From the NCBI GenBank assembly GCA_944320985.1, contig CALUJN010000079.1, forward strand, positions 1 through 64,000: 64,000 nucleotides of DNA, read 5' to 3'. Origin of the DNA: an uncultured Alistipes sp. (GTDB lineage Bacteria; Bacteroidota; Bacteroidia; Bacteroidales; Rikenellaceae). Positions 13,562-64,000 of the stretch are shown one piece after another. The position numbers and the translations under genes are program-made. How positions within the stretch are numbered: the first letter of the stretch is position 1; each line of letters begins with the position of its first letter. The notes below the pieces were generated by a model that saw only the letters and a list, made by a program, of their open reading frames with translations, made no database searches and was not told where the DNA came from.

Positions 13562-15268
13562 TCAATAATTATCGTTTTGTCCAAGATTCGGATTCGACAA
13601 TACCTCGTCTGCCGGAATCGGCCAAAGATACTGCCTGGAGGCGTCGAACATTCTCTGAGATGCGATGTCGAGCAAGCCGGCCTTATACAGCGGGGAGAGG
13701 TCGGGGAATCCGTTTTCGTCCACTTCTATCTTGCAGTCGGCGTCCGCGGAGAAGAACCATTTTCCGGGATTCACGACCTTTTCAATCAGGGCATCCTTAG
13801 TGAGCAGTTTGTAATAGGGAGTATTGAAAACCTTCTCGGCCAATCTCCATCGTATGAGGTCTATGTATCTGTTTCCCTCAAAGGCGAGTTCCATTCGTCG
13901 TTCTATTCTGACCGCTTTTCTCAACTCATTCTGATCGGTTGTTGTCACCGCCGGATAGCTGTCCGTTTCGGTATAGTCGACGCCATAGGCCCGCGCGCGG
14001 ACCATGTTGATTGCATCCAATACGGATTGGTCGATCTCTCCGGCCTCGATTTTCGCCTCGGCATAGGTAAGCAGGACCTCCGCATATCGGATATATATCA
14101 GGTCAGCTTCGACCTCAAAGGTTCCGTTGTTCACCCAGGTTTCATCGACCCCTTTTTTCAGGACAAGTCCGGTATAGGAGGCATACTTGTCTCCGCCGAA
14201 ACAGTCTTTGTTCGTGATTTCGCCTCCATGGACCTTGCTGTATACCTTCGTAACCAGGGGATTCGGGTCATATATGACACTGAGGTGCTCGGTTTCGAAC
14301 TCGACGATCGTAGCCGTGCATCTGGGATCCCTGTTTTCGAACGGTTTGTTGGGATTGAACAGCGGAGACTCGTCGATAGGCAGACCGTCCGTGCATAAAT
14401 AGGAGCACAGCAGCTCCAGGGATGGGAACGAAGAGGCATATCCGCCTCTGTTTCTGGTGACAAAACCTTTGATGGATCCGGTATCCCTGTAGAGGAATCC
14501 GTATTCGATTGATCCGGGGAATACGAGGATGCTTTCTACCGAATTCCGGGTTTTCGAGAGGAACAATTCCGAGTAATCGGGATACAATTCATATACATTG
14601 AGATCCATACAGGCCTTGGCGGCCTTGTAAGCGATCTCCCAGTCCCCGTTGTATAGCGCATATCTGGCCTTGAGAGCATAAACGACCCCTTTGTTGGCCC
14701 GGTTTTCGGTCTCTTTGGGCAAGACTTCGGCCGCGATGTCAAAATCTCTGTATACATTTTCCAGTATGGTCTCCTTGTCGGTTCTTCCGATGTGTTTTGC
14801 CTCTTCGATGGAGAGCGGGGTCTCCGTGTATACGACATCCCCGAAATAGGTCACGAGCATGGCATATTCTGCCGCTCGGACAAAGAGGGCCTCGGCTATA
14901 TAAAGATCGATTTTGTCCTGAGGGATTTCCGAATTTTCGTTATGCTGCAGATTGTATATGATCGTATTGGCTCTTGCGATGGCTTTATAGCAGTTGGACC
15001 ATCGGGTGGCGACATCGCTGTTCTGGCTGTTCAACGTCCCACCGGTCATGGGCCCGGCCGTATTTCTCGTCTGGACGTCATCCGTCCAACTGAGGGCGTC
15101 CACATCCCAAAACTCCTCTCTATAGAGATTCTTCAGCGACATTTCCACCTCCTCTTCCGTAGAATACCAGGAGTCGCTGGATCCGGTGTAGAGCGGGAAT
15201 CTGTCGAGTTTATAGCAGGAGGCAAGCCCCACAGCCATCAGCAGTGAAAATAATATCCGCGATTTCAT
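13562..15268 (-). CDS. SusD/RagB-family nutrient-binding lipoprotein
   Basis: Outer-membrane lipoprotein that caps the SusC porin and binds the glycan at the cell surface. The signal peptide ends in GLASC (Cys18). SusD features are the N-terminal DRFPLYTGSSDSWYSTEEEV region, tetratricopeptide-like helices (VRAAEYAMLVTYFGDV; KARYALYNGDWEIAYKAAKA) and the C-terminal RYAEVLLTYAEAKIEAG and RRMELAFEGNRYIDLIRW motifs, ending YLWPIPADEVLSNPNLGQN. Length 568 is normal. It follows susC by 11 nt and precedes the GH30-like gene by 5 nt, so the genes are co-transcribed. It is intact, unlike several genes elsewhere in the window. Confidence 0.96.
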   Translation of the reverse strand: MKSRILFSLLMAVGLASCYKLDRFPLYTGSSDSWYSTEEEVEMSLKNLYREEFWDVDALSWTDDVQTRNTAGPMTGGTLNSQNSDVATRWSNCYKAIARANTIIYNLQHNENSEIPQDKIDLYIAEALFVRAAEYAMLVTYFGDVVYTETPLSIEEAKHIGRTDKETILENVYRDFDIAAEVLPKETENRANKGVVYALKARYALYNGDWEIAYKAAKACMDLNVYELYPDYSELFLSKTRNSVESILVFPGSIEYGFLYRDTGSIKGFVTRNRGGYASSFPSLELLCSYLCTDGLPIDESPLFNPNKPFENRDPRCTATIVEFETEHLSVIYDPNPLVTKVYSKVHGGEITNKDCFGGDKYASYTGLVLKKGVDETWVNNGTFEVEADLIYIRYAEVLLTYAEAKIEAGEIDQSVLDAINMVRARAYGVDYTETDSYPAVTTTDQNELRKAVRIERRMELAFEGNRYIDLIRWRLAEKVFNTPYYKLLTKDALIEKVVNPGKWFFSADADCKIEVDENGFPDLSPLYKAGLLDIASQRMFDASRQYLWPIPADEVLSNPNLGQNDNY

Positions 15269-50250: not shown

Positions 50251-51624
50251 TCAGCGACGGGATCCCCGGGCAACGAACAGGGCAAGGATGAACGACAGTG
50301 CCGACGCCGTGATCCAGAAGATGATGGCGGTGCCGAAATCGTAACGGGTGATCCCGTCGACGACCGTCTTGCCCGAATCAATGAGCCAACCGCTGACGAT
50401 GTCCTGCAACCCGGCGCCCACGTAGCTGGCCATACCGACGATGCCGAGTGCGGCGCCCGTGGCTTCGCGCGGCACGATATCGATGGCCATCAGCCCTCCG
50501 AGGAAGCAGATCAGCACGCCGATGGCCATGCCGAACAGCACCATCGAGAGCAGGTTGACGAACATGCCGTTGCCCGAATAGAGGAAGAGGGCCAGGGCCA
50601 GGGTGTTCAGCACGCCGAATCCAAAAGCCAGGACGTTGCGCCGTCCGTGGAAGAGACGGTCCGAGAGCCATCCCGAGAAGACCGTTCCGACAATTCCCAG
50701 CAGGGCATTCACCGAGATGACCTGCGTGGCCGTCGCCAGCGAGTACCCCTTGACCTCCTGGAGGAAGAGCACGCCCCAGCCGTTGATCGCATAGCGGCTC
50801 ACATACATGAAGGCGCTCGACAGGGCCAGGATCCACACGAACGGATTCCGGATCACGGAGCGTTGCAGTTCGGAGGTGGTGCCGTGTTTACGGCTCTGCT
50901 CCTCGGACTCCTCGCCGGTCAGCACCCCGATCGGAGGCAGCCCCTTCGATTCGGGGGTGTCGTGTAACAGAAAGAGGATAATCACTACGCCAACAGCCCC
51001 GGCTACCGAGGAGCCGACGAATCCCCACTGCCAGCCGAAGATTCCCACAACGGCGCCCACGAAGAGAAACGAGAGGAATTCGCCGAGGTTGTGGCTGGCG
51101 CTGAAAAAGCCGTAATAGGTGCCGCGGATGCTCAACGGATACCAACGCGAGAGGGCGATGATGGCCGGAGGTGCGCCCATCGACTGCGCCCAGCCGTTGA
51201 TCCCCCACATCACGGCAAAGGCCACGAAGAGGGTCATGTTACCCACGAACCCGCCGCCGTTGGCAAAGCCCAGCAGTCCGACCAGCAGGTTCGCCACCGT
51301 CGAGACGCAGAGTCCCGCGGCCATGAAGCGTTTGATGTTGCTGTGGTCGGCGAGGAAGCCGTTAACGAACTTTCCGATGGCATAGGCGAAGAGCAGGGCC
51401 GAGCCGATCAGACCGAGTTGCGAGGCATCGAGCGCCCCGCTTTCGAGGATGGGCTTCTTCACCACGTTGAGACTCGTACGACAGACGTAGTAGAGGCTGT
51501 ATCCGACGGTTCCGGCCACAAAGCTCTGGAAACGAAGCCTGCGATAGAGTTTCATGCGGGCCTCGTCGTCACCCGTGAACGGAGCCGAGGGTTCGCTTTT
51601 ACGAAAAAAGGATATGACAGACAT
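50251..51624 (-). CDS. GlpT-like organophosphate:phosphate antiporter (MFS)
   Basis: Inner-membrane transporter of the OPA family, probably exchanging sn-glycerol-3-phosphate for phosphate. Twelve helices are evident. The N-terminus FVAGTVGYSLYYVCRTSLNVVKKPI, the AYAIGKFVNGFLADHSNIKRFM loop and WGINGWAQSMGAPPAIIALSRWYP are characteristic of GlpT/UhpT-type carriers. Length 457 is normal. It is the last gene of the operon, with only 2 nt between it and the secreted EEP gene. It therefore completes the pathway by bringing the glycerol-3-phosphate released by the two phosphodiesterases into the cytoplasm. Hexose-phosphate specificity is the alternative, but the neighbours favour glycerol-3-phosphate. 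Confidence 0.88.
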   Translation of the reverse strand: MSVISFFRKSEPSAPFTGDDEARMKLYRRLRFQSFVAGTVGYSLYYVCRTSLNVVKKPILESGALDASQLGLIGSALLFAYAIGKFVNGFLADHSNIKRFMAAGLCVSTVANLLVGLLGFANGGGFVGNMTLFVAFAVMWGINGWAQSMGAPPAIIALSRWYPLSIRGTYYGFFSASHNLGEFLSFLFVGAVVGIFGWQWGFVGSSVAGAVGVVIILFLLHDTPESKGLPPIGVLTGEESEEQSRKHGTTSELQRSVIRNPFVWILALSSAFMYVSRYAINGWGVLFLQEVKGYSLATATQVISVNALLGIVGTVFSGWLSDRLFHGRRNVLAFGFGVLNTLALALFLYSGNGMFVNLLSMVLFGMAIGVLICFLGGLMAIDIVPREATGAALGIVGMASYVGAGLQDIVSGWLIDSGKTVVDGITRYDFGTAIIFWITASALSFILALFVARGSRR

Positions 51625-51626
51625 GA

Positions 51627-52514
51627 TTATTCCACAAATTCAAGTTGAACCAATACCGGGAAATGATCCGACGGCGTACGGGCCCGATAACGGAGTTCGC
51701 CGTCGGAGGACTCTTCCGAGCGGTAGGTGTCGGTCAGAATGCCGTAGCGCAGGACACGGAATCCCGGGCTCACGAAGAGGTGGTCGATCCGCCGGAAGTT
51801 CCGAATATCGGGATCAAACCAGTTCTCCGTGCCGGTCATGGCATAACGAATCCCGGCCTGTTCGAAAGCATCCGCAAGGAATCCCGAGTCGTGCAGGATG
51901 GCGTAACTCTCGCTCGTCTCCCCGACATTGAAGTCGCCGGTCAGGATCACATGTTCCGAGCCGCACATTTCGCGGATCTTCGCCAGCACCAACCGACAGC
52001 TTTCGATCTGCGCCTGCGTTCCCTTGTGATCCATATGCAGGTTGAAAAACCAGAAGCGGTGCTGCGTCTGCCGGTCGAGGAAACGACCCCAGCAACAGAT
52101 CCGGACATACCTGGCATCCCAGCCCAGGGCCGGCCGCGCAGGGTCCTCGGCGAGCCAGAAATGGCCCTCGTCAAGCAGTTCGAAACGGTCACGTTTGTAG
52201 AAGACGACGCAATATTCACCCGCTTGGGCGCCATCGTCACGCCCCACGCCCGTCCAGCCGTACCCGGGCAGTGCTGCCGCGAGATCCTCCAACTGACTGT
52301 GGAACACCTCCTGGGCGCCGAAGATCTCAAAGTCGTGGAAGCGCACGAGCTGGGCAATCACGGGACACCGAACCGCCCAGCCGTCGCCTCGGGCATCATC
52401 CTCGGCGTTCAGCTGGCGGATATTGTAGGTGCCAGTCCGGAGCGTCTGTCCGTGCACGGTCCCTGCTCCCGCAACCGCGGTGAGCCAGAGGCCAATCAAC
52501 AAAAGCCTTCTCAT
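51627..52514 (-). CDS. Secreted EEP-family phosphodiesterase
   Basis: Exported enzyme of the endonuclease/exonuclease/phosphatase superfamily. A signal peptide (1-22, ending TVHGQ) precedes the single catalytic domain. TYNIRQLNAED, FGAQEVFHSQLEDL (metal Glu), NLHMDHKGTQA, LTGDFNVGETSE, RRIDHLFVSP and TPSDHFPVLVQL supply the expected Asn, Glu, His, Asp, Asn and final His residues. There is no lipobox, so the protein is probably periplasmic. The superfamily covers DNases, sphingomyelinases and inositol-phosphate phosphatases. Next to two glycerophosphodiesterases and a GlpT-like carrier, cleavage of a phospholipid or polyol-phosphate headgroup is inferred. It lies 13 nt after the GDPD gene. Confidence 0.88.
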   Translation of the reverse strand: MRRLLLIGLWLTAVAGAGTVHGQTLRTGTYNIRQLNAEDDARGDGWAVRCPVIAQLVRFHDFEIFGAQEVFHSQLEDLAAALPGYGWTGVGRDDGAQAGEYCVVFYKRDRFELLDEGHFWLAEDPARPALGWDARYVRICCWGRFLDRQTQHRFWFFNLHMDHKGTQAQIESCRLVLAKIREMCGSEHVILTGDFNVGETSESYAILHDSGFLADAFEQAGIRYAMTGTENWFDPDIRNFRRIDHLFVSPGFRVLRYGILTDTYRSEESSDGELRYRARTPSDHFPVLVQLEFVE

Positions 52515-52527
52515 CGTTGCAGACCTG

Positions 52528-53439
52528 TTACGGACGACGTCCTTTGGATTCGAGATAGCGGATCAGAAACTCCGGACGGTCGGTCTGGATGATCGTCGCC
52601 CCCAGGTCGAGCAAACGCCCGTAGACGGCCTCCGTCTCACCGCGGAAGGCCCGGTCATCGTCCAGTCCGCCACAGAGCGACGGCCAGAGCGAGTTGACCC
52701 AAAGCTTCGAACCTCCGTCGACGACCTGCCGCATGCACGCCTCCACCTCGGGGGTCAGCGTATCCCAGCAAATCTCGTAGGCCAGCGGCTGCTCCTCGCA
52801 GGCGCGGTAAGCCTCGAAGAGCTCGCGCCCCTGGGGTTTAAGGATGTCGCTGATCGGCATGTACATCATGTTGTGGGGATACTCGGCGAACTTCGCGGCC
52901 ACGACTTCGGCGGGACGCTTGCCCTTGATGAGGACCTGATCGGTCATGCCGAGCTCCTCGGTAACGGCCAGCGCCAGGTCATAGTATTCGTACCCCTGGT
53001 CGATGTTGACCACGATGCGGTCCTTGCAGACTTCGAGCGCCTCGCGGAGCGTGGGCATGCGCAGCGCGGTCTTCACGCCGTGGCCGGTCCGCAGCACGCA
53101 CCGGCAGATCGAATCATAGGTGATGTCGCACACCTGTCCGTGACCGTTGGTCGTGCGGTCGATCGTCTTGTCGTGACAGAGCACCAGCACGCTGTCGCTC
53201 GTCAGTTTGAGGTCAAGCTCCATGATATCGACCCCCATGTCAATCACCGACTCGATGGCGTCGATCGAGTTTTCGGGCCAGTTCCGCCAGTCGCCGCGGT
53301 GCGAGACGACCAGCACGTTCCTCGACGTCGGGTTACGAAGTTCGGCGAGGATCCGGTCGGTTGTACGGAGCGCGGCCGGATCGGATTGCGCGGTGCACGA
53401 GCAGAGCGCCGCCGCAAACAGAAATAAAATACGGTTCAT
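52528..53439 (-). CDS. Glycerophosphodiester phosphodiesterase lipoprotein
   Basis: GlpQ/UgpQ-like enzyme that hydrolyses glycerophosphodiesters to glycerol-3-phosphate and an alcohol. A short lipoprotein signal MNRILFLFAAALCSC (Cys15) precedes the GDPD barrel. The first catalytic His is in VVSHRGDWRNWPENS, the metal pair in MELDLKLTSDSVLV, and the second His in LCHDKTIDRTTNGHGQV. RMPTLREALEVCKDRIVVNID closes the pattern. Length 303 is normal. It sits between the two EEP genes in the same operon. With a lipid anchor but no extra binding domains it is more likely a periplasm-facing enzyme, in contrast to the PKD-carrying GDPD upstream. Confidence 0.93.
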   Translation of the reverse strand: MNRILFLFAAALCSCTAQSDPAALRTTDRILAELRNPTSRNVLVVSHRGDWRNWPENSIDAIESVIDMGVDIMELDLKLTSDSVLVLCHDKTIDRTTNGHGQVCDITYDSICRCVLRTGHGVKTALRMPTLREALEVCKDRIVVNIDQGYEYYDLALAVTEELGMTDQVLIKGKRPAEVVAAKFAEYPHNMMYMPISDILKPQGRELFEAYRACEEQPLAYEICWDTLTPEVEACMRQVVDGGSKLWVNSLWPSLCGGLDDDRAFRGETEAVYGRLLDLGATIIQTDRPEFLIRYLESKGRRP

Positions 53440-53507
53440 TTTTCAAAAAAGGTTAAAAGCCGGCGGGAAGCACACCTTGCGGAGCGGCTTCCCGCCGAAG
53501 CCACGGT

Positions 53508-55523
53508 TTATTCCAGGACCGGATAGCTTTCCGACGCCACCCAGCGGCGGACGGCCGTTTCGGGTTTGGTCGGGAGCGTTTCGCCGGTCAGCTCCGTATA
53601 GAGTTCGGCACCGGCATTCAGCGCCTCGACGAACGACGCACACTCCTCCTGGGACGAAGGAACCGTCACGGCGCCCGTCTTCATCACGTCAAGGCTCAAC
53701 AGCGCCCCGGCACTCTTTTTCCAGACCGTACCGGCTTCCTTGTCGTTGCCGACGATCCAGTTGGTATTGTTCGTTCCCGACGGGCAGGCCACGTTGCCGT
53801 AGACGTTCCAGATGTTGCCCACCTTGCTGTAACCCACGGCCGAGGCGAACGAGCCGTTCTGCGAGACATCGGCCAACGTCGCGTAGCAGTTGATGACAAA
53901 GCTGTCGGAGCTGACGATTCCGACAATGCCACCGATGTTGTTGTTGCTCGAAACGATGCGCTCGAGCCAACTGTAACAGTTGATAATGTAGGCTCCGTCG
54001 GAGACCTGACCGACAATTCCGCCGAGGTTCTCACTCTTGGTGGCCTCGCCGGCCTCGATCACCCCGCCGCGGTTGCCGCAGTTGATCACCACGCCGGTGC
54101 TCTGGTTCTGGCCTGCGATGCAGCCCAGCACGGAGGCCGCACCCGATCCCGTGATCGTTCCCTGGAAGGTCACGCCGTCGATTACGCCGAGGTTCGTCCC
54201 GACGACACCGCCGGCGGTTTTGTAGGCGGTCGAGAGCGAGAGGTTCTCCACGACCAGATCGCGGATCGTGCCCTCATTGCCGCCGAAGAGGCCGAAGGAG
54301 GATCCCGAAGCGGAGGTCTTCACGTTGCGAATCGCATGGCCGCGGCCGTCGAACTGACCTTGGAAATAGACCAGGCTCTCGGTATTGAACGAGATGGGTA
54401 CGGCAGCCTGATTCTTGAAGTCGATGTCGGCCGTCAGGACATAGTAGTGCTCCGAGAGATAGCGGGCATCGTCCGCAGCGCCGTTGATCGACTCGGCGAC
54501 GGCATTCCAGTCGGCCGAGGAGTTGATCTGCCAGGGATCGGCCTCGGTGCCGGCGCCCTCGATCTGGGGAGCCTCCGGCGCATCGTAGTTGAAATCGGCC
54601 TGAATGGTCACCGGGCAGTGGTCCGAAGGATAGATATTCCCGAAGACCGAATTGTCAACCTTGTAGGATTTCAATGCGAGTGCCCCGCGCGTATGGATGT
54701 AGTCGATGCGTGCGGTCTCCACCGAGAGGTCTGCCGTGATCTTGTGCCCGTTGAAGGTTCCGACGGGTCCGCTGACAAAGCGCGCATCCACGGCCTCGCG
54801 AGCATCCTCCCAATAGGAGCGGAACGAGCTCGACGCAGCGTCGTCGGGCGTGGCGTTCATGTCGCCGACCAGCACCGAAGGCATCCCCTTCGTATTGTAC
54901 ATCTGCTCGCGTTCGATGATCAGTTTGGCAGCCTCCGAGCGGGCCATGTCGGCCTTCGGCATATGAGTCACCGTCAGGAAGAATTGCTTGCCGTGGAGTT
55001 TGTCGGTCACAACGGCGCAGCAGGCGATGCGGTGATACCCCACCTCGTCCCATCCGTAGCTCACCTCGTCGGGGGTTGCGGAGAGCCAGTAGAAATGCTG
55101 CTCGCTCAGTTCGAAGCGATCCGGATTGTAGGCGATGCCGATGGCTTCGCCGCTCCTGCCATCCTGCGAATCACGCCCGACGAACCACCACTTGTAATTG
55201 CCGCCCTTGTCGGCCACGAGTGTCGGGAGTTCGGACTGAATCGTGGTGTTGGCCTCCTGAAACCCGAAGATATCCCAGCCGTTGTTGACGATCGACTGTG
55301 CAAGCACATTGCGACGATTCGTCCAGTCGTAGTCCCCGGTACCCTTGTTCGAGATCCAGAGGTTGTAGGTTCCGAGGCTGACGGTCTGCTCCGTGATGTC
55401 GGGCTCGGCCGGGGGCGTATCGTCCCCGTAATAGTGATGGTTCAGTTGGGTCGGGAAATCCTCGGCGCAGCCCGCCAGAAGAGTGGCGGCCACGCACAAG
55501 GAAAAAAACAGAGATCGTTTCAT
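53508..55523 (-). CDS. Surface EEP-family phosphodiesterase lipoprotein with GLUG-type repeats
   Basis: Two-part lipoprotein. A signal peptide ending LLAGC (about Cys19) precedes an EEP catalytic domain (about 45-345) with LGTYNLWISNKG, IFGFQEANTT, LTVTHMPKADMA, LVGDMNATPDDA, RIDYIHTRG and YPSDHCPVTIQ. The C-terminal half (about 350-640) is a right-handed beta-helix built of GLUG-like repeats, such as FGLFGGNEGTIRDLVVENL, GGVVGTNLGVIDGVTFQG and GGIVGIVSSDSFVINCYA, which usually mediate surface binding. The combination suggests a cell-surface enzyme making the first cut in a phosphate-containing polymer or lipid headgroup. It lies 68 nt before the small GDPD gene and 24 nt after the PKD/propeller gene. 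Confidence 0.88.
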   Translation of the reverse strand: MKRSLFFSLCVAATLLAGCAEDFPTQLNHHYYGDDTPPAEPDITEQTVSLGTYNLWISNKGTGDYDWTNRRNVLAQSIVNNGWDIFGFQEANTTIQSELPTLVADKGGNYKWWFVGRDSQDGRSGEAIGIAYNPDRFELSEQHFYWLSATPDEVSYGWDEVGYHRIACCAVVTDKLHGKQFFLTVTHMPKADMARSEAAKLIIEREQMYNTKGMPSVLVGDMNATPDDAASSSFRSYWEDAREAVDARFVSGPVGTFNGHKITADLSVETARIDYIHTRGALALKSYKVDNSVFGNIYPSDHCPVTIQADFNYDAPEAPQIEGAGTEADPWQINSSADWNAVAESINGAADDARYLSEHYYVLTADIDFKNQAAVPISFNTESLVYFQGQFDGRGHAIRNVKTSASGSSFGLFGGNEGTIRDLVVENLSLSTAYKTAGGVVGTNLGVIDGVTFQGTITGSGAASVLGCIAGQNQSTGVVINCGNRGGVIEAGEATKSENLGGIVGQVSDGAYIINCYSWLERIVSSNNNIGGIVGIVSSDSFVINCYATLADVSQNGSFASAVGYSKVGNIWNVYGNVACPSGTNNTNWIVGNDKEAGTVWKKSAGALLSLDVMKTGAVTVPSSQEECASFVEALNAGAELYTELTGETLPTKPETAVRRWVASESYPVLE

Positions 55524-55547
55524 TTCAGTGTCGGTATTTTTCGGTTG

Positions 55548-57147
55548 TTACTTCTGGTAGTTGATGTGTCGGGCACTGCCGCCGTACTGCGACCAGGAGG
55601 AATCCGCAGCGGATGTCACACCCGGCAGAGCCACGGCGTAGACCACCGACGGCGTCACGGCATCGGCCACGATGTAGAGGGTCTGGCCGCCGGCGCTCAA
55701 CGAGGCTCCGGTCTGTTTGAAGCCGCCGTCGAGAGCAACGCTCCACTTGGGCGTCTTCGACGAAGAGGCGGTCAGGTTCGTACAGTCGAAAGCGGCGAGG
55801 TTCCACGTGCCGCTGCCATTGATCGTACCGGCCAGATAGAGGACATTGTCAGAACCGACACACGGCTGGCACTGGTTCGACGAGAGGTTGTCTCCCGGCG
55901 TGAAACCGTTGTCTTTGGAGACAGCCGCCCAGCCGGACAGGTTGTCGGGCACCATCAGACCATATCCGTGCGTTCCCGATGCGGTATAGATGGCAGCTCC
56001 GCTTTTGAGGACGATTGTTCCGGCACTGATACCGCCGTTCGCGGGTTTCACCGTCGCAGTATTGCGCCCCGAAGCCTTGTCGAAGCGGCGCAGCATACCC
56101 GACGTACCGCGGTTTCCAACCACCAGCATCTCCGGCGTGATACACGGCGTGGAGTAAGCGATCCGGTCTTCGCTGACATAGGCGGTCTGGTTCTTCCAGA
56201 GTACCGAACCCATGGAGCCATCGAAGGCGTAGACGGTCGGTGCGGCCGATTTATCGCCGTAGGCATGGGCAGCCCAATAGACCGTACCGTCGGCATCCAC
56301 CGAGGTATAGGCGATCTCCTTTGTCAGCAGCACCTTGTCCTGCGCGGTGGCATCGTACTCCCAGGCCACCTCACCGGCAGCATCCAGCGCTACGAGCTTG
56401 CCTTCGCCCGTCACGGCGTAGATGTATCCCAGATCGCTCACCGTAACGACATTGCCCGCACAGAGTGCCTCGGCCGCCGCAACCTCCTTGCTCCACAGCA
56501 CGGTGAACTCCTCGACGTCACCCTCGCGAACGTTGACCGACTTGGTTACGCTGTTTTCACCGCCGCGGTCGTCGGTAACAGAGAGCGTCACGCGGAACAT
56601 GCCCTGGGCGGAAAAGGTATAGGTGGGGCTTTCGTCCGTGGAGGTCGAGCCGTCGGGGAAGGTCCACTTGCGCGAGACGATCTCACCGTCGGAATCGGAC
56701 GACTTGTCGGTAAAGGTCACCTCGTCGCCGACGTTGACCATCATCGGGGCATAGGAGAAGTCGGCCGTCGGCAGCACGTTGTCGGCCAGGACGGTCACGA
56801 TCTTCTTCACCGTGGCGCGGTTGCCGTCGGCCCCCCCAGGCCGTCAGAGTCACCGTGTACTCCCCGGCCTGGGCGTAGACCACCGGATCGGGCTGCGCCT
56901 CTTCCGACCAGTTGCCTTCGCCCGAGAATCCGAAGTGCCAGAAGTAGTCCGCAATGGTCGTACCTTCGACGGTCGTGAGATTGGTAAAGGTCACCGGCGT
57001 GGTGCCGGCCACGATCTCGCCCTCGGAGATGGAGAAATCGGGCGTGATGACCGAATCATATACGTTGTTCATGTCGTCGTTGCCGTCCGTACAGGCACCC
57101 AGCGCGAGGAGCGACACGACGCTCAATAAGGAAATGAATCGTTTCAT
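55548..57147 (-). pseudogene. PKD-domain / PQQ-like propeller lipoprotein, frameshifted at a G7 run
   Basis: The N-terminal part is a lipoprotein signal (MKRFISLLSVVSLLALGAC, Cys19) plus a first PKD domain (TPVTFTNLTTVEGTTI...YTVTLTAWGG). The rest continues in another frame: a second PKD domain (ADFSYAPMMVNVGDEVTF...FRVTLSVTDDRG) and a PQQ-like beta-propeller (YIYAVTGEGKLVALDAAGEV; VYAFDGSMGSVLW; TLYIVADAV). The frames meet at a run of seven G on the coding strand (C7 at 56831-56837). Removing one G reads TAWGADGNRATVKKIV and restores a 532-residue protein. No catalytic motif is visible; in the SusE/SusF slot of the operon it is likely a surface substrate-binding protein. The frameshift may be a true mutation, slippage variation or a sequencing error. 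Confidence 0.82.
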
Positions 57148-57173
57148 GGTGTTCGTTTAGTCGTTTTAAGGTT

Positions 57174-58598
57174 TTAGCGTTTTCCTTTGCCGCGGAGGTA
57201 TTCGTCCATTTCGGCGGGATAATCGCACTGGATCATGCGCACGCCGGCCGCGACGAAGGAGTCCATCAGCGCCGTATTGCCGTTGTAGAAGTTCTGTCCG
57301 TTGTCATCGAGCAGGTTTGAAACCGCGAGGGCCCGGGCATTGATGGCGGCGATCCAGGACGAGGTGACATACTCCGTGGAGGTTTGCACCATGTATACCG
57401 GTTCGTAGGCCGTCATCAGGGTCAGCGCCGACTCCTTGTTGGCGTGCGGTGCGAGGATTCCGGGAATCTCCTGGCTGGAGAGCCAGTCGGCACGGTCGGT
57501 GTTGTCGGAGATGTAGAACTGCACGCGGTCGAGACATCCGCAGCGTTTGACCACGTCGTAGACCTTCTCGATGTTGACATCGCTCTCCATGCACTTGTCG
57601 AGGTTGAACCACACCTTCCCGCGGAACTCCGTGAGGACCTCCTCCAGCGTGGGGATCTTCTCCTCGGAGACCTTCCCGTCGGAGGTCTTCAGCCGGAACT
57701 GGCCCAGCTCCTCGAACGTAAAGTCGGCGACCATACCCTTTCCCGCATAGTAGTTGTTGTAGTCGGTAAAGCGGCTCAGATAGTTGTCGTGCAGACAGAT
57801 GACCACTCCGTCACGGGTAATCTGCACGTCGGTTTCGATGAAATCCACGCATCCCAGTTCGACGCATCGGCGGAAGGCCGCCATCGAGTTCGGGGGCAGT
57901 TCATATCCGTTCTTCGTATTGCCGCGATGGGCCATGATCCACATCTTCGAGCGGTCGAAATTGCGGCAGGCCCAGCTCAACGAGAGCCCCTCCACCTCGA
58001 CCGTGCGTTGCAGCGTCTGGGTCTCGCCGCCGGCAAAGGCGACATCGGCCCGCACCGTATAGGATCCCTCCCCGGCAAAGCTGTGCGTCAGCTGCTGCGT
58101 CGCGGAAGAGGTGGTTTCGGGCTCGCTTCCGTCGCCGAAGTCCCAGGTCACGCCCGTAACATCGGAGAGGCGGTTGAGCGAGAAGCGAACCTCCTCCATC
58201 CGGGCGGGGAAGTCGTTGCTGACGACCATGCCGGCCTGCGTGTCGTTCACGGAGATCGTGCACGACAACTCGCTCATCGCCCCGGAGAGCGGCGTGAGGA
58301 CCGCCTTGACGAAATACTCTCCGGCTGCAGCATAGGCGTGCTCCACGGATTCCGAGGGCTGTGCCGAGGCGGTTTTGCCGTCGCCGAACATCCACAGCAC
58401 GCTGCGGAGCGCCGAGACGTCACCGTCGAGCGAGAAGCTCACGAGCTGATCCACCGTCGGGGAGGCGGGCTCCCAGCGGATCGCCGTCTCCGAACCCGTT
58501 TCCGGTCCCGAGGCCTCCCCATCCTCCTTCGAGCAGGCGGCAAGGAGAAGCGCCCCGACCAGACCGAAAAACGCAAATATTCGTTTCAAACGTTCCAT
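57174..58598 (-). CDS. PKD-domain glycerophosphodiester phosphodiesterase lipoprotein
   Basis: Surface-type GDPD. The ATG at 58598 gives a lipoprotein signal (MERLKRIFAFFGLVG... LAAC). Two PKD/Ig-like domains follow (about 35-110: VDQLVSFSLDGDVSALRS...YFVKAVLTPL; about 120-205: FPARMEEVRFSLNRL...YTVRADVAF). A C-terminal GDPD barrel (about 215-474) has MAHRGNTKNGYELPPNS, FIETDVQITRDGVVI, CLHDNYLSRFTDY and KVWFNLDKC. The PKD arms suggest that the enzyme stands away from the outer membrane and captures substrate outside the cell. It starts 10 nt after susD, the position normally held by the surface endo-enzyme of a PUL. Confidence 0.92.
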   Translation of the reverse strand: MERLKRIFAFFGLVGALLLAACSKEDGEASGPETGSETAIRWEPASPTVDQLVSFSLDGDVSALRSVLWMFGDGKTASAQPSESVEHAYAAAGEYFVKAVLTPLSGAMSELSCTISVNDTQAGMVVSNDFPARMEEVRFSLNRLSDVTGVTWDFGDGSEPETTSSATQQLTHSFAGEGSYTVRADVAFAGGETQTLQRTVEVEGLSLSWACRNFDRSKMWIMAHRGNTKNGYELPPNSMAAFRRCVELGCVDFIETDVQITRDGVVICLHDNYLSRFTDYNNYYAGKGMVADFTFEELGQFRLKTSDGKVSEEKIPTLEEVLTEFRGKVWFNLDKCMESDVNIEKVYDVVKRCGCLDRVQFYISDNTDRADWLSSQEIPGILAPHANKESALTLMTAYEPVYMVQTSTEYVTSSWIAAINARALAVSNLLDDNGQNFYNGNTALMDSFVAAGVRMIQCDYPAEMDEYLRGKGKR

Positions 58599-58608
58599 GT
58601 TCCGCAGA

Positions 58609-60075
58609 TCAATCAACATTGTAACCCGGGTTCTGATAGAGTCCGCTCGGATTAAGGATCCGCTCGTTGTAGGGGATCGGCAGGAGCAGGTCCTTGACCG
58701 AGAAGTTGGAATTCAGTGCGTTATAGTGCTCGATCATCTCCTGGTTCGAGTACATGCGGCGCACGTCCTGCCAGCGCAGCCCCTCCTGCATGAACTCGAA
58801 GAGGCGCTCGTCGTAGATTCCCTGCCGCAGGTCGCTGCCCGACCAGTCGGCCAGCCCGGCCCGCTTGCGGACCATGTTCAGGTAGTTCTTCGCGGTGGCT
58901 TCGGTGCCCTGCCAATAGTAGGCCTCGGCCAGCATCAGCGCCACATCGGCATAACGCAGCACGATCCAGTTGTTGCCACCGTAGCCGTTGGCGCCGCATT
59001 CCAGATCGGCATACTTCATCGTGTGGTAATAGGTCACACCGGCCACGGTCGTCTCCCGCAGATAGTTCCGGCGCACGTCGCTCGGGTCGAACGAAGCGTA
59101 CACTTCCGGGGTAGTCATATTATGCATCTGACCAATCTTGTAGGAGGTGATTCCCGTCGTGCTGGGTCCGAACTGAAAGTTCCAGATCGACCCCAGATCG
59201 GCATTCCCCTGCACGTAGTTGATCTGGAAAATACTCTCGGGGCAGGACTTCTGCGTGGAGAGGTCCCAGAGCTGGTTGTAGGGAATGTCGGCAAGCTCGC
59301 CGAAGGGACGCATGTCCCATACCTGGGTCAACTTCTCGATAGCCGTTGTCAGATAGGTGCTCTTGTCGGCCGCAAAGTCCTCGTCACAGGCACATTGCAG
59401 GGCCACCTTGCCATAGAGGGCGATGGCCGCAGCCTTGCTGGCGCGTCCGCACTCGGAGGCCGGCTGGAAATCGGCCAGCGGACTGCCGAGAACGAAATCC
59501 AGATCGTCGAAGATCGCCTTGTAAACCTCCTTTTTGGGGCGTCGGTAGTTGTTGGCCTCAACCTCATCCTTGGTCTCCAGGCGCTTGAGCACCAGCGGCA
59601 CGTCGCCCCACTCGGTCACCAGATGGAAGTAGGTCAGCGCACGGATGAAACGCGCCTCGGCCTCGTAGGTGTTCCGGGAATCGGGATTGGCATAGCTCAC
59701 GTCGTCGAGGTGCGCCAGCAGCGTATTGGCCCGCGAGATGCTCTTGAAGAGCTGCGTGTAACGGTTGTAGACATACTGGTTCTCCTCGGTGAGCGTATAG
59801 TTGTAGAACTGGTAGGGAATACCGCTGCTGGCACCGCTGTCGGTCACCACGGTAACATGTGCCCGCACATCGGTGAAGTAGTAGTTGTACTGATAGTAGT
59901 AATCCTGTGTCAGCGACTGGTAGACGCCGTTGAGCGAAGTTACGATGTCGGCCTCCGACGTATAGAAGTTCCCGGCCGTGGTGGCGTTGGGGTCGTATTC
60001 ATCGAGGAAGTTGCACGACATCAACGCCGCAGAGGCGGTCAAAGCTGCAAATATCTGTTTGATTTTCATATTCAT
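58609..60075 (-). CDS. SusD/RagB-family substrate-binding lipoprotein
   Basis: Outer-membrane lipoprotein partner of the SusC directly upstream (6 nt). A signal peptide ending LMSC (Cys21) precedes the DEYDPNATTAGNFYTSEADI region. TPR-like helices (EARFIRALTYFHLVTEWGDV; KAAAIALYGKVALQ) and the SusD C-terminal motifs RYADVALMLAEAYYWQG, DERLFEFMQEGLRWQDVRR and LLLPIPYNERILNPSGLYQNPGY follow. At 488 residues it is a compact but complete SusD. Everything downstream in the operon concerns phosphodiesters, so its ligand is probably a glycerophosphodiester or teichoic-acid fragment, not a plain glycan (inference). Confidence 0.95.
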   Translation of the reverse strand: MNMKIKQIFAALTASAALMSCNFLDEYDPNATTAGNFYTSEADIVTSLNGVYQSLTQDYYYQYNYYFTDVRAHVTVVTDSGASSGIPYQFYNYTLTEENQYVYNRYTQLFKSISRANTLLAHLDDVSYANPDSRNTYEAEARFIRALTYFHLVTEWGDVPLVLKRLETKDEVEANNYRRPKKEVYKAIFDDLDFVLGSPLADFQPASECGRASKAAAIALYGKVALQCACDEDFAADKSTYLTTAIEKLTQVWDMRPFGELADIPYNQLWDLSTQKSCPESIFQINYVQGNADLGSIWNFQFGPSTTGITSYKIGQMHNMTTPEVYASFDPSDVRRNYLRETTVAGVTYYHTMKYADLECGANGYGGNNWIVLRYADVALMLAEAYYWQGTEATAKNYLNMVRKRAGLADWSGSDLRQGIYDERLFEFMQEGLRWQDVRRMYSNQEMIEHYNALNSNFSVKDLLLPIPYNERILNPSGLYQNPGYNVD

Positions 60076-60081
60076 CCGAGT

Positions 60082-63000
60082 TTAGAAGGTAAGATTCAGT
60101 CCGACCGAATAGATCCGTGAGAGCGGGTAGCAACCCCAGTCGAATCCGGGCATCAGGTTGCTGCTCTTGTAGGATACCTCCGGGTTGTAGCCGCGGTACG
60201 GGGTGATGGTGAAGAGGTTGTCACCACTGAAATAGACGCGGCACGAGGCGATATGGAGCTTGTTCATCCAGCGCTGGGGCAGCGTATAGCCCAGGGTGAT
60301 GTTCGCACAGCGGAAGAACGAGGCATCCTCGACATAGTAGGACGAGAGTTTGAGCGACGTATTGGGCGTCGAGATACGCGAAGCGATGGGGACGTTGTTG
60401 CGTCCGGGCTGCTCGTCGGAGATGTAACGGTCGGCGACGATGGCGTACTGGTTGCCCGAGCCCTCCATGTTGTAGAGATAGTAGTCCTGGAAGTTGATGA
60501 CCTCGCCGCCATAGGAGTAGGCGAAGCTGGCGCTGAAATCAATGCCTTTCCACGAAAGACTGGTCGAGAACCCGCCCGTGAAATCGGGATAGGCGTCACC
60601 GATGATGGTCTTGTCGTCGGTGGTGATCAGACCGTCACCGTTGACATCCTCCCAGATGACGTTTCCGTAGGAGAGCGCGTCGAGCGAATAGGACGACACG
60701 GCCGGACCTTTCAGCTCGTAGCCTTCGGGGAACTTGTTGCCGTTTTGGAGATAGATTTCACGGTCGAGGAGCGCATTGGCGTAGTCGGCCTTCGACATGA
60801 TGCCGATGGCGTTGTATCCGTAGAACGACCCGATCGGATAGCCCTCCTTGGTGATGTGCGAACCCACGGAGCGCTCCGACGTGGAGATGATGTCGTCGAG
60901 TCCGCCCATGCTGACCACCTTGTTGCGGTTGACCGAGATGTTGGTGCTGAAATTCCAGTTGACCTTTCCGGTGAGCAGGCGGGCATCGAGCTGGAGGTCG
61001 AAACCGCGGTTGCGGATCTTCGCGGCGCTGAGGTTCGTCTTGGTGGAGGTGGCGCCGGAGATCGAGGAGATGGGATAGTCGTAGAGAATATCCGAAGAGA
61101 TCGAGTTGTAGTAGTTTCCGATGATGTTCAACCGGCCGTTGAAGAATCCGAGGTCGATACCGAGGGGAAGTATCCCCAGCGGCTGTCGACGCCGAAGCGC
61201 GAGGAGCCATCGGCGCGGAACGATGCGGTGAACGTATACCGGTCGTCGAAGGAATAGTTCAGACGGGTGAGGAACGACATCATCGACCAGGCGGCCTTCC
61301 GCGTATCGTAGAGTTTGATATCCGTGGCCTCGGAGCCGTGAGCCGTGACCTCATGGATGCGGTCATCGGCAAAGCCCGTAGCCTCGACACCCAACCGGTC
61401 GTAGGTCTTCTTTTGGAGCGTATATCCGGCCAGGGCGTCGAAATGGTGGCGTCCGAAATCCTTCTTGTAGCTGAGCGTGAACTCACCCAGGCGGTCAACA
61501 TCGTAGGTCGAGGTCGTGCGGGCGATGTTGTAGGGCTTCAGGGCGTCGCTGTACGCCACGGCGGAATCGCGTCCGAGGCTCATCGGACGGTAGTAGAAAT
61601 AGCGATAGTTGTACCACTGCTGTCCGAGCCGTGCCGAAAGTTTCAGATCGGGAATGATCTCGTAAACCAGATTGGCATTGAGGTTGTGCCGCGACATTTT
61701 CTCCTGAATGTCGAGTTCATGGGCGATGGCCAGCGGGTTTTCAGGGAAGTTGATGCCCCAGTCATTCTTCATGGCGATCATGGCACTGCGGGCATAGTCA
61801 CCGTTCTCATCATAGGCGGGGAAGTTCGGCAGATACATCAGGGCACTCTGGATCACGCCATCGTTGATCATGCGGCCTTCGGCCTGTACGACGCGGTTCT
61901 TGGCATCATACATCGAGTAGCTCAGGCTCACCGAGAAACGTTTCGTGATCTGGGCATCGAGGTTCAGCCGGGCATTGATCCGGTTGTGGTTCGACGGCGA
62001 GATGATACCGTCCTGATCCATGTAGCCGACGCTGGCCATGTAGCGGATGGCTTTCGTACCGCCCGTGACGGAGATGTTGTGGCGCATGATGCCGGCATTG
62101 GAGAAGAGTTCATCCTGCCAGTCGGTATCGTATTGCGGAGTGACGGGCGTCCGGGTCGTGAAGTCGTAGAACATCTCGGGGATTCCGACTTCAGCCAGGG
62201 AGAAACCTTTGGCGGCACGTACCGAATTGTCGTCATAAGGGCTCCACGACACGCCGGCAGCCGTGGCACGCAGCCGGTAGGAGTTGTTGCGGGCGTCGAT
62301 TAACAGATCGCGAAACTGCGTGGCGTTCAACAGATCAACCTTGTGATCGAGCTGCTGGATACCATACGAGAAGTCATATTGGTGGTGATCAGCACGACAC
62401 CCGAGACACCACGCGAGCCGTAGATTGCGGCCGAAGCGGCGTCTTTGAGGATGTCGATCGACTCAATGTCGTTCGGGTTGATGTAGACATCCTCCGAAGC
62501 GGGATAACCGTCGATCACATAGAGCGGGTCGCTGCTGGCCGAGAGGGAGTTGACACCGCGGACGCGGATCGTCACCCCATCACCGGGGGCACCGCTGGTC
62601 TGATGCACCTCGACACCGGCGACCTTTCCGACGAGCGACTGTCCGACGGTGGGCGCCGTCACGGAGAGTTCACTGGCCTTGACGCTGGCGATCGAGCCCG
62701 TAAAGTCGCTCTTACGCATGGGCGTGTAACCGACGACCACCACTTCGGAGATCTGCTTGTTGTCCTCTTCGAGGGTGATGTCGATGACCGCCCGGGTTCC
62801 GACCTTCACCTCGCGGGTATTGTAGCCGAGGAAGGCGAACGATAGGGTCTGCCCGGGCTCTGCAGCGATCGAATAGTCGCCGTCGAGACCGGTGACATTA
62901 CCGCTGCCGGTCTCCTTGACGATCACGCTGGCTCCGACAACGGGGTCGCCGGCCGCAGTGGTCACCCGACCGGTGATCATGCCCTTCTGCGACTTTTCGG

Positions 63001-63361
63001 CACGGGCGGCTGCGGTCCCGTTGCTGACGGCGGGAGCAAGGATCACGCGGTTGCCCTCGATCCGGGCTTTGAGATGCTGGGGTCCGAGCACCCGGTCGAC
63101 AATCGAGACGATATCCTCGGATTCGGCCTTGATGCTCACGATCGCCATAAGGTCGATCTCGGCATTGTTATAAGCAAAGGTGTAGTTGCTGCGGGACTCC
63201 ACTTCGGCGAGGAAGGTCTTCACCGAAACATTCCGCAAATCAATTGAAATTGTCCGGGTCTGTGCGACGGCGATCACCACGCTCAACGACAAGACCAACG
63301 AGACAAGGATTTTCGGGACAAGGGACTTGCGCCCAAACTGATTGGGTCCTTCATGTTTCAT
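60082..63361 (-). pseudogene. SusC/RagA TonB-dependent transporter with STN domain, broken by two deletions
   Basis: The N-terminus has a signal-anchor segment, an STN domain (ISIDLRNVSVKTFLAEVES, about 38-105), a carboxypeptidase-like domain and a plug (VGYTPMRKSDFTGSIASV; IDILKDAASAAIYGSRG). After VVLITTN the frame is lost near 62375-62380. The continuing barrel sequence (YDFSYGIQQLDHKVDLL) is in another frame and the expected Lys/Gly-rich link of about 8-10 residues is missing. A second break near 61150-61160 joins WGYFPSVS directly to IDLGFFNGRLNI, skipping about 110-130 residues normally found in the barrel. The remainder runs to the canonical end IYSVGLNLTF. Both junctions are deletions, not single-base slips. 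The STN domain and the adjacent FecR imply sigma/anti-sigma control. Without these deletions the protein would be about 1,200 residues. Confidence 0.88.
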
Positions 63362-63458
63362 AGGTAAATAAGGTTTAAATTCAGACAGTAGTTTTTTCGA
63401 AAATCGTTTTCCGGCGAGGCCGGAGATCAGGCGGATGATTCCATAGATTGGTTCATGT

Positions 63459-64000
63459 TTATTTGTGAATGATTATGTGATGTCGGTCGATTTGCCGGCA
63501 ATGGTAACGGGTGAGGTTTTCGATGATGCGGAGTGTTTCATCGAGGGTTTCGGGGCGCAGGGTGAAGGAGAGGCGCACCGAGGCATCAACGTCGGGAGCA
63601 ATCTGAATCCGGATATTGTACCAGTGCTCCAGATTAACGGCAATCTCTTCAAGGGTTTTGTTCTCGAAGACGATCGAATCGCCGGTCCAACTGCAATAGT
63701 TGTCGGCAGCGACATTGCGGACGGTCATGCGACCGGTCGCGGCATCGAACGAGCAGTTTTGATCGGGACGGAGTCTCACGCTTTTTTCCAGCCGGGTATG
63801 TTCGACCTCGACGGACCCTGACTGAAGAGTCACCTCTTCCACCCCGAGTTTGACGATATGGCTGGCATTGAAGCGGGTTCCGAGGACCCGGACGCGGAGA
63901 TCGCCCATCTCGACTTCGAAGGGAGCCAGCGTGTCGCGCTTCACGTCGAAGAAGGCTTCGCCCTCGAGCCGGACGTGGCGGACGCCGCCGTCGGCGAAGG
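63459..64000 (-). CDS. FecR-family anti-sigma factor (5' end outside the window)
   Basis: The C-terminal part of a FecR-type protein runs off the right edge. The visible frame contains VRHVRLEGEAFFDVKRD and FEVEMGDLRVRVLGTRFNAS, the classic FecR core. LQSGSVEVEH and VRLRPDQNCSFDAATGRM follow, then a C-terminal STN-like tail (LEEIAVNLEHWYNIRIQIAP...ETLDETLRIIENLTRYHCRQI). FecR proteins sit in the inner membrane and hold an ECF sigma factor until the STN domain of a loaded transporter signals. Here it lies 97 nt upstream of an STN-bearing SusC. The sigma-factor gene is expected just beyond the edge. Confidence 0.9.
   Translation of the reverse strand, partial: FADGGVRHVRLEGEAFFDVKRDTLAPFEVEMGDLRVRVLGTRFNASHIVKLGVEEVTLQSGSVEVEHTRLEKSVRLRPDQNCSFDAATGRMTVRNVAADNYCSWTGDSIVFENKTLEEIAVNLEHWYNIRIQIAPDVDASVRLSFTLRPETLDETLRIIENLTRYHCRQIDRHHIIIHK

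Follow-up and report, generated by a model that had tools for sequence, protein, structure and literature searches.

The window analyzed here, the first 64,000 nucleotides of contig CALUJN010000079.1 (C79:1–64000) in a 2.66-Mb, 90-contig draft assembly of an uncultured Alistipes sp. (genome G000), contains a minus-strand operon that encodes a SusC/SusD outer-membrane pair together with two glycerophosphodiester phosphodiesterases (GDPDs) and a GlpT-like carrier. SusCD pairs are usually read as sugar importers. We propose, with a probability of about 0.65, that this operon would serve the uptake of glycerophosphodiesters for their glycerol-3-phosphate, and not of sugars, and that it is the fullest version here of a recurring SusC–SusD–GDPD set. 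This reading is supported because the core recurs at a locus in another Bacteroidales family, because GDPD genes are linked to SusCD across the class, and because the catalytic motifs, fold and carrier-site residues are intact. The broader proposal, to which we give even odds, is that SusC–SusD–GDPD constitutes an unnamed outer-membrane nutrient system across the class Bacteroidia, its cargo a glycerophosphodiester (a lipid headgroup or a poly-glycerol-phosphate such as Gram-positive teichoic acid), and that the Alistipes operon represents this system in full, comprising a sensor, a binder at the surface, a glycerol-3-phosphate carrier and GDPDs placed in two compartments.

Pfam or NCBIfam matches give the gene order FecR, SusC, SusD, PKD-GDPD, PKD/propeller lipoprotein, an exo-endo-phosphatase with a GLUG-type region (EEP1), DUF4996-type GDPD, a second exo-endo-phosphatase (EEP2) and a major facilitator superfamily (MFS) carrier, separated by gaps of 97, 6, −11, 26, 24, 68, 13 and 2 nt from FecR through MFS. 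The operon begins beyond the window: the complete FecR gene (327 residues) occupies contig positions 63459–64442, and an open reading frame (ORF) for an extracytoplasmic function (ECF) sigma factor lies at 64654–65277, the Pfam check of this factor having been made in the copy of the isolate Alistipes sp. An66 only. With SusC next to SusD, and with degradative enzymes and surface lipoproteins encoded alongside, this is a SusCD-type nutrient locus resembling a polysaccharide utilization locus (PUL). The operon proteins scanned with Pfam and NCBIfam matched no glycoside hydrolase (GH) family, as the first-pass annotation of this DNA had stated, and no polysaccharide lyase or carbohydrate esterase family, so that the locus does not qualify as a PUL for sugar polymers.

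Recurrence of the SusC–SusD–GDPD set

Seven related Alistipes loci were compared, namely those of the window, An66 (L010), L011, L012, L024, L026 and L027. The closest named relative at the locus, An66, keeps the whole operon, and its PKD-GDPD is 94% identical to that of the window. L024 carries the SusC-to-carrier set in the same order at 62–86% identity, with an early stop in EEP2. L026 has the sigma factor, FecR, SusC, SusD, GDPD and two propeller genes, with divergent DUF4996-type GDPD and MFS genes, and L027 has a distant SusCD pair with a PKD-propeller gene and two BACON-GDPDs. EEP1 is present in five of the seven loci (window, L010, L011, L012 and L024), and EEP2 is intact in two (window and L010): a deletion of ~760 bp has reduced the L011 copy to its last stretch (L011:16353–16491), and no EEP2 was found in the L012, L026 and L027 stretches, the first two of which end inside the MFS gene, so that any copy farther on would escape notice in both. 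No EEP gene of either kind was found in the L026 stretch. In L012, a sulfatase gene (PF00884; L012:8369–9973) lies between EEP1 and the DUF4996-GDPD.

Outside the genus, none of 392 other genomes of the order has a strong match to the PKD-GDPD, and four have a weaker GDPD match (L052, L046, L048 and L051; best 1.4e-27, from a search that scored up to four candidates in each genome). L052, from another Bacteroidales family, carries sigma factor, FecR, SusC, SusD, PKD-GDPD, PKD/propeller, DUF4996-GDPD and MFS genes in the order of the window; no EEP gene was found there by tblastn, and no glycoside hydrolase is among the genes scanned from sigma to MFS. A gene of the phosphate-selective porin O/P family (PF07396; L052:4521–5537) follows the MFS gene. 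In L051, the neighbours of the GDPD include GH28 and GH57 genes, and the queries used gave no SusCD match. We rejected the EEP enzymes as part of the core on these distributions, neither having been found in L052; they are accessory, lineage-specific extras.

The DUF4996 domain (PF16387) was sought in 247 genomes of the order (8 with a match, 7 above the cut-off) and in 395 genomes of the class (10 with a match), two overlapping sets. Excluding the window's own copy and G355, whose weak match falls below the cut-off, leaves 16 neighbourhoods (L043–L050, L052 and L072–L078), not all of them independent. Same-strand SusC/SusD genes lie near the DUF4996-GDPD in 12 of the 16; for comparison, a SusD would be expected within 10 kb of 14.6% of randomly chosen points, a figure that rests on the SusD density of a single genome (21 SusD loci in the 2.66 Mb of G000). 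The GDPD directly follows SusD in eight (L046, L048, L072, L073, L075, L076, L077 and L078), a GlpT-like MFS gene is close to the GDPD in five (L043, L045, L047, L050 and L052), and sigma and FecR matches stand beside SusC in four (L052, L073, L075 and L077). These surveys led us to reject a system confined to Alistipes. The first-pass annotation had named a lack of conserved co-occurrence of these enzymes as grounds for refuting its proposal; by that criterion the proposal stands for the GDPDs and, less widely, for the MFS carrier, and partly fails for the EEP enzymes, since many of the related loci lack them or carry broken copies.

Several individual arrangements were also recorded. L048:9296–12200 reads SusC–SusD–GDPD and then directly a GH92 gene; L043:1022–11579, from another family, reads SusC–SusD–EEP–DUF5689–GH3–GDSL esterase–GDPD–MFS on one strand; and at L045:5388–13772 several GDPD genes cluster near a SusCD pair, together with the gene for a protein that has a ricin-type lectin domain. 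The window's own genome has a second DUF4996-GDPD (G000:C31; L050:3404–5690), directly followed by a GlpT-like MFS gene, with no same-strand SusCD in the stretch read.

In a tree of 28 SusDs, which has several long branches, the window SusD belongs to a clade with 100/100 support whose nine members are all GDPD-linked (window, L010, L012, L024, L026, L046, L048, L072 and L078, the last four from outside the genus). Paralogues from its own genome (seven taken of the 21 SusD loci) all fall outside this clade. A second SusD-like match elsewhere in the window lies at 14651–15268. Further GDPD-linked groups comprise L045, L047 and L073; L043 and L052; and L075, L076 and L077 with the tandem SusD of L076. 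A single clade of all GDPD-linked SusDs was rejected. Because the GDPD-linked SusDs form several groups, the SusD–GDPD linkage is either old or has arisen repeatedly.

Enzymes, carrier and a putative route for glycerol-3-phosphate

Both window GDPDs score above the cut-off for PF03009, and in both the HR, ExD and H motifs are retained, which places them in the GDPD family; a simple HRG pattern is unmatched in 2 of the 18 GDPDs compared (L027_b and L047). A structure model of the PKD-GDPD (pLDDT 90.5) matches the folds of 3I10, 3MZ2, the phi812 spike and Bacillus subtilis GlpQ, and the DUF4996-GDPD aligns with 3I10 over residues 34 to 300. In this phylum, surface lipoproteins typically have acidic residues a short way past the lipid cysteine; such residues are present in the PKD-GDPD, the propeller protein and EEP1 and absent from the DUF4996-GDPD. 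The An66 propeller protein (model pLDDT 88.4) resembles BamB-type propellers, a likeness that is uninformative about its ligand.

The MFS carrier scores 244 bits against TIGR00881 and 208 bits against the glpT model, below the cut-off in each case, and it aligns to the GlpT structure 1PW4 (9.6e-46). By the residue numbers and roles of GlpT, all nine carriers compared keep the four residues of the GlpT site (two arginines, a lysine and a histidine); the L012 and L026 carriers, cut by sequence ends, were excluded from this set. Together with its MFS fold family, this conservation places the window carrier among proteins of the organophosphate:phosphate antiporter (GlpT/UhpT/PgtP) type.

EEP2 matches 4C1R, named ‘mannosyl-6-phosphatase’, and 3MPR at ~1e-90, and these matches make phosphomonoesterase activity at least as likely as diesterase activity; EEP2 is likely a sugar-phosphate phosphatase, and the phosphodiesterase function first assigned to it is doubtful. 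The GLUG match in EEP1 is marginal (20.9 bits against a Pfam cut-off of 20.5).

Of the parts that trans-envelope sigma/FecR signalling would require, FecR is matched and the sigma factor is matched in An66, with an orthologous ORF here; the STN match on SusC falls under the Pfam cut-off (26.9 against 28.4 bits; 23.5 in the An66 copy). Coordinates are given in Table 1.

Table 1. Genes of the operon in the window, with the matches on which each assignment is based.
Feature	Position	Strand	Basis
FecR-type anti-sigma regulator, 3′ part	63459..64000	-	PF16344, PF04773; full FecR in An66; orthologues aligned
SusC-like TonB-dependent transporter, three ORFs	60082..63361	-	TIGR04056 across pieces, TIGR04057 signature; Plug, CarbopepD_reg
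SusD-like surface lipoprotein	58609..60075	-	PF07980, PF14322
PKD-GDPD lipoprotein, likely surface	57174..58619	-	PF03009 and two PKD domains; acidic residues after lipid cysteine
PKD/beta-propeller lipoprotein, two ORFs; likely surface binding protein	55548..57147	-	PKD, PQQ_2 matches
EEP1, exo-endo-phosphatase domain and C-terminal GLUG-type region, lipoprotein; accessory	53508..55523	-	PF03372
DUF4996-type GDPD lipoprotein, likely periplasm-facing	52528..53439	-	PF03009, PF16387; 3I10 whole-length match
EEP2, secreted exo-endo-phosphatase, likely phosphomonoesterase; accessory	51627..52514	-	PF03372; 4C1R, 3MPR ~1e-90
MFS carrier, organophosphate:phosphate antiporter type (PgtP/UhpC/GlpT-like)	50251..51624	-	TIGR00881, glpT, 1PW4 matches

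In the route that we propose, the surface PKD-GDPD and the propeller lipoprotein would bind and trim a glycerophosphodiester, which may be a phospholipid headgroup (glycerophosphocholine, -ethanolamine or -inositol) or a glycerol-phosphate polymer. SusC and SusD would import the pieces with TonB energy, the DUF4996-type GDPD would free glycerol-3-phosphate in the periplasm, and the GlpT-like antiporter would bring it inward in exchange for phosphate. Binding of substrate may turn on the operon by way of the ECF sigma factor, FecR and SusC, the last with a weak STN match. We infer the substrate, the cleavage site and the regulation alike. A path from surface cleavage through SusCD import and periplasmic hydrolysis to inner-membrane uptake had been put forward from the window alone, and it gains support from the conservation of SusCD, PKD-GDPD, DUF4996-GDPD and GlpT-like MFS genes in L052 and from the class-wide SusC–SusD–GDPD linkage.

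Disrupted SusC and propeller genes in the window as assembled

The gene order and families first assigned to the window were borne out, with the exception that SusC and the PKD/propeller lipoprotein are not single intact genes in this assembly. SusC is split into three ORFs (62327–63361, 61128–62330 and 60082–61131), although it had been taken to be intact, and the propeller gene into two (56683–57147 and 55548–56810). Relative to An66, whose intact genes encode a SusC of 1,185 residues and a propeller protein of 619 residues, the window SusC lacks ~35 bp at one place and ~244 bp at another, whereas in the propeller gene one base is inserted and ~258 bp are deleted. Both large deletions, in two genes of one operon, end at short direct repeats of ~9 bp. 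SusC is also intact, at 1,185 residues, in L011. As assembled, the window copy would not import.

Among 55 An66 gene calls in the compared stretches, 28 have no match above 70% identity on the contig and were left out; the other 27 correspond to 26 distinct genes, one being called twice. SusC and the propeller gene are the only two of these 26 that are split, in a comparison that detects only breaks that divide an alignment. Assembly noise in general is therefore not supported as the cause; the splits may reflect either strain decay or misassembly limited to these two variable surface genes.

A somewhat improbable reading is that the operon is a decaying leftover, its importer already lost in the window genome and its remaining genes without present use. 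The two lesions in each of SusC and the propeller gene, amid 24 unsplit orthologues, are what decay would leave, as are the truncated EEP2 of L011 and the early stop in that of L024. However, the draft is in 90 contigs, so that the two surface genes may be misassembled; the six remaining operon genes after FecR are full frames at 88–98% identity to An66; and An66 itself has all of these genes intact. Decay would in any case bear on the window copy and not on the system.

Cargo, control and known systems

Several findings weigh against an operon for glycerophosphodiester uptake. The broken SusC and propeller genes are one. The PKD-GDPD occurs in only 7 of 180 genomes of the genus, the window's own included. 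Four of the 16 DUF4996-GDPDs have no same-strand SusCD nearby (L044, L049 and L074, together with L050, which has a SusD ~9.5 kb off on the opposite strand), and 11 of the 16 neighbourhoods have no GlpT-like MFS gene in the stretch read. The carrier falls under every NCBIfam cut-off, with 208 against 632.55 bits for the GlpT equivalog, to which it cannot be assigned, and the PgtP and UhpC models score slightly above glpT. The GDPD-linked SusDs do not form one clade: on the tree their label needs 6 changes, a count that 22 of 500 label shuffles match or undercut. Finally, some GDPD–SusCD loci have sugar-active or other neighbours, namely GH92 (L048), GH3 and a GDSL esterase (L043) and a sulfatase (L012).

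These last neighbours make a phosphoglycan possible as cargo. The operon would then take up a glycan that bears phosphate groups, of the glycerol-phosphate or another type (for instance yeast phosphomannan, a capsule or a GPI-like glycan), the GDPD and EEP enzymes stripping the phosphates and enzymes coded elsewhere using the sugars. We consider this quite unlikely. It would accommodate the name of the protein closest to EEP2 and the closest NCBIfam model for the window SusD, NanU (81 bits against a cut-off of 425), but neither the window operon nor the scanned L052 genes include a glycoside hydrolase, EEP2 is absent or broken in five of the seven Alistipes loci, and it is the GDPD that directly follows SusD in half of the 16 neighbourhoods. 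The cargo could be lipid headgroups, teichoic acids or phosphoglycans, among which the sequence evidence does not discriminate. In favour of glycerophosphodiester uptake, B. subtilis GlpQ is described as freeing glycerol phosphate from wall teichoic acid, acting from the free end (PMC7086022).

A conserved SusC–SusD–GDPD set would mean that some gut Bacteroidia draw phosphorus and glycerol-3-phosphate from phospholipid headgroups or cell-wall polymers. In annotation, a GDPD gene directly after SusD would then serve to predict SusCD systems that do not import sugars, and the cultured strain An66 is suited to testing these proposals.

Among known systems, GlpQ and GlpT are coupled in Escherichia coli, and in E. 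coli and B. subtilis, as proposed here, a GDPD yields glycerol-3-phosphate that a GlpT-type antiporter imports. What sets the present operon apart is that this pair comes with a SusCD importer in the outer membrane and with a GDPD that bears PKD domains and is likely at the surface; the second GDPD has a DUF4996 domain. The EEP2 relative 4C1R comes from what we take to be the Bacteroides thetaiotaomicron yeast-mannan PUL, within a SusCD locus; that PUL is reportedly built around mannosidases, whereas the operon here has none. No gut SusCD locus with a GDPD was found among open-licence papers judged by titles and the beginnings of abstracts.

The nearest counterparts are the PUS/PusCD loci of Flavobacterium johnsoniae, which combine SusCD with phosphodiesterases or phosphatases in place of carbohydrate-active enzymes (CAZymes) and are induced by phosphate depletion (PMC8115612). 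By that definition, the operon here has PUS-type composition, with SusCD beside phosphodiesterases or phosphomonoesterases and no CAZymes. It could be a phosphate-starvation system under PhoB-like control that scavenges small phosphodiesters of any kind as a source of phosphate, a reading that we regard as unlikely. The described PusCD loci and their induction argue for it, as does the porin O/P family gene after the MFS gene in L052, but sigma and FecR genes adjoin SusC here and in L026, L052, L073, L075 and L077, which suggests control by substrate.

The Flavobacterium loci and the Alistipes operon share the replacement of CAZymes by phosphodiesterases or phosphatases, a proposed role in organic-phosphorus import and SusDs of several lineages. 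They differ in their enzymes, those named for PUS being PhoA-type, CpdA-like and phospholipase-C-like; the terms ‘GDPD’ and ‘GlpT’ do not occur in the main text on Flavobacterium PUS (PMC8115612), and the operon here has both types. They differ also in that PUS is defined by its induction on phosphate depletion, whereas here sigma and FecR genes adjoin SusC. The statement that no named system has this exact composition thus holds for the composition and not for the kind, which the PUS/PusCD loci already represent (PMC8115612). Organophosphate, non-sugar SusCD loci are known; what is new here is the form with GDPDs, a GlpT-like carrier and sigma/FecR, together with a minimal version found across the class.

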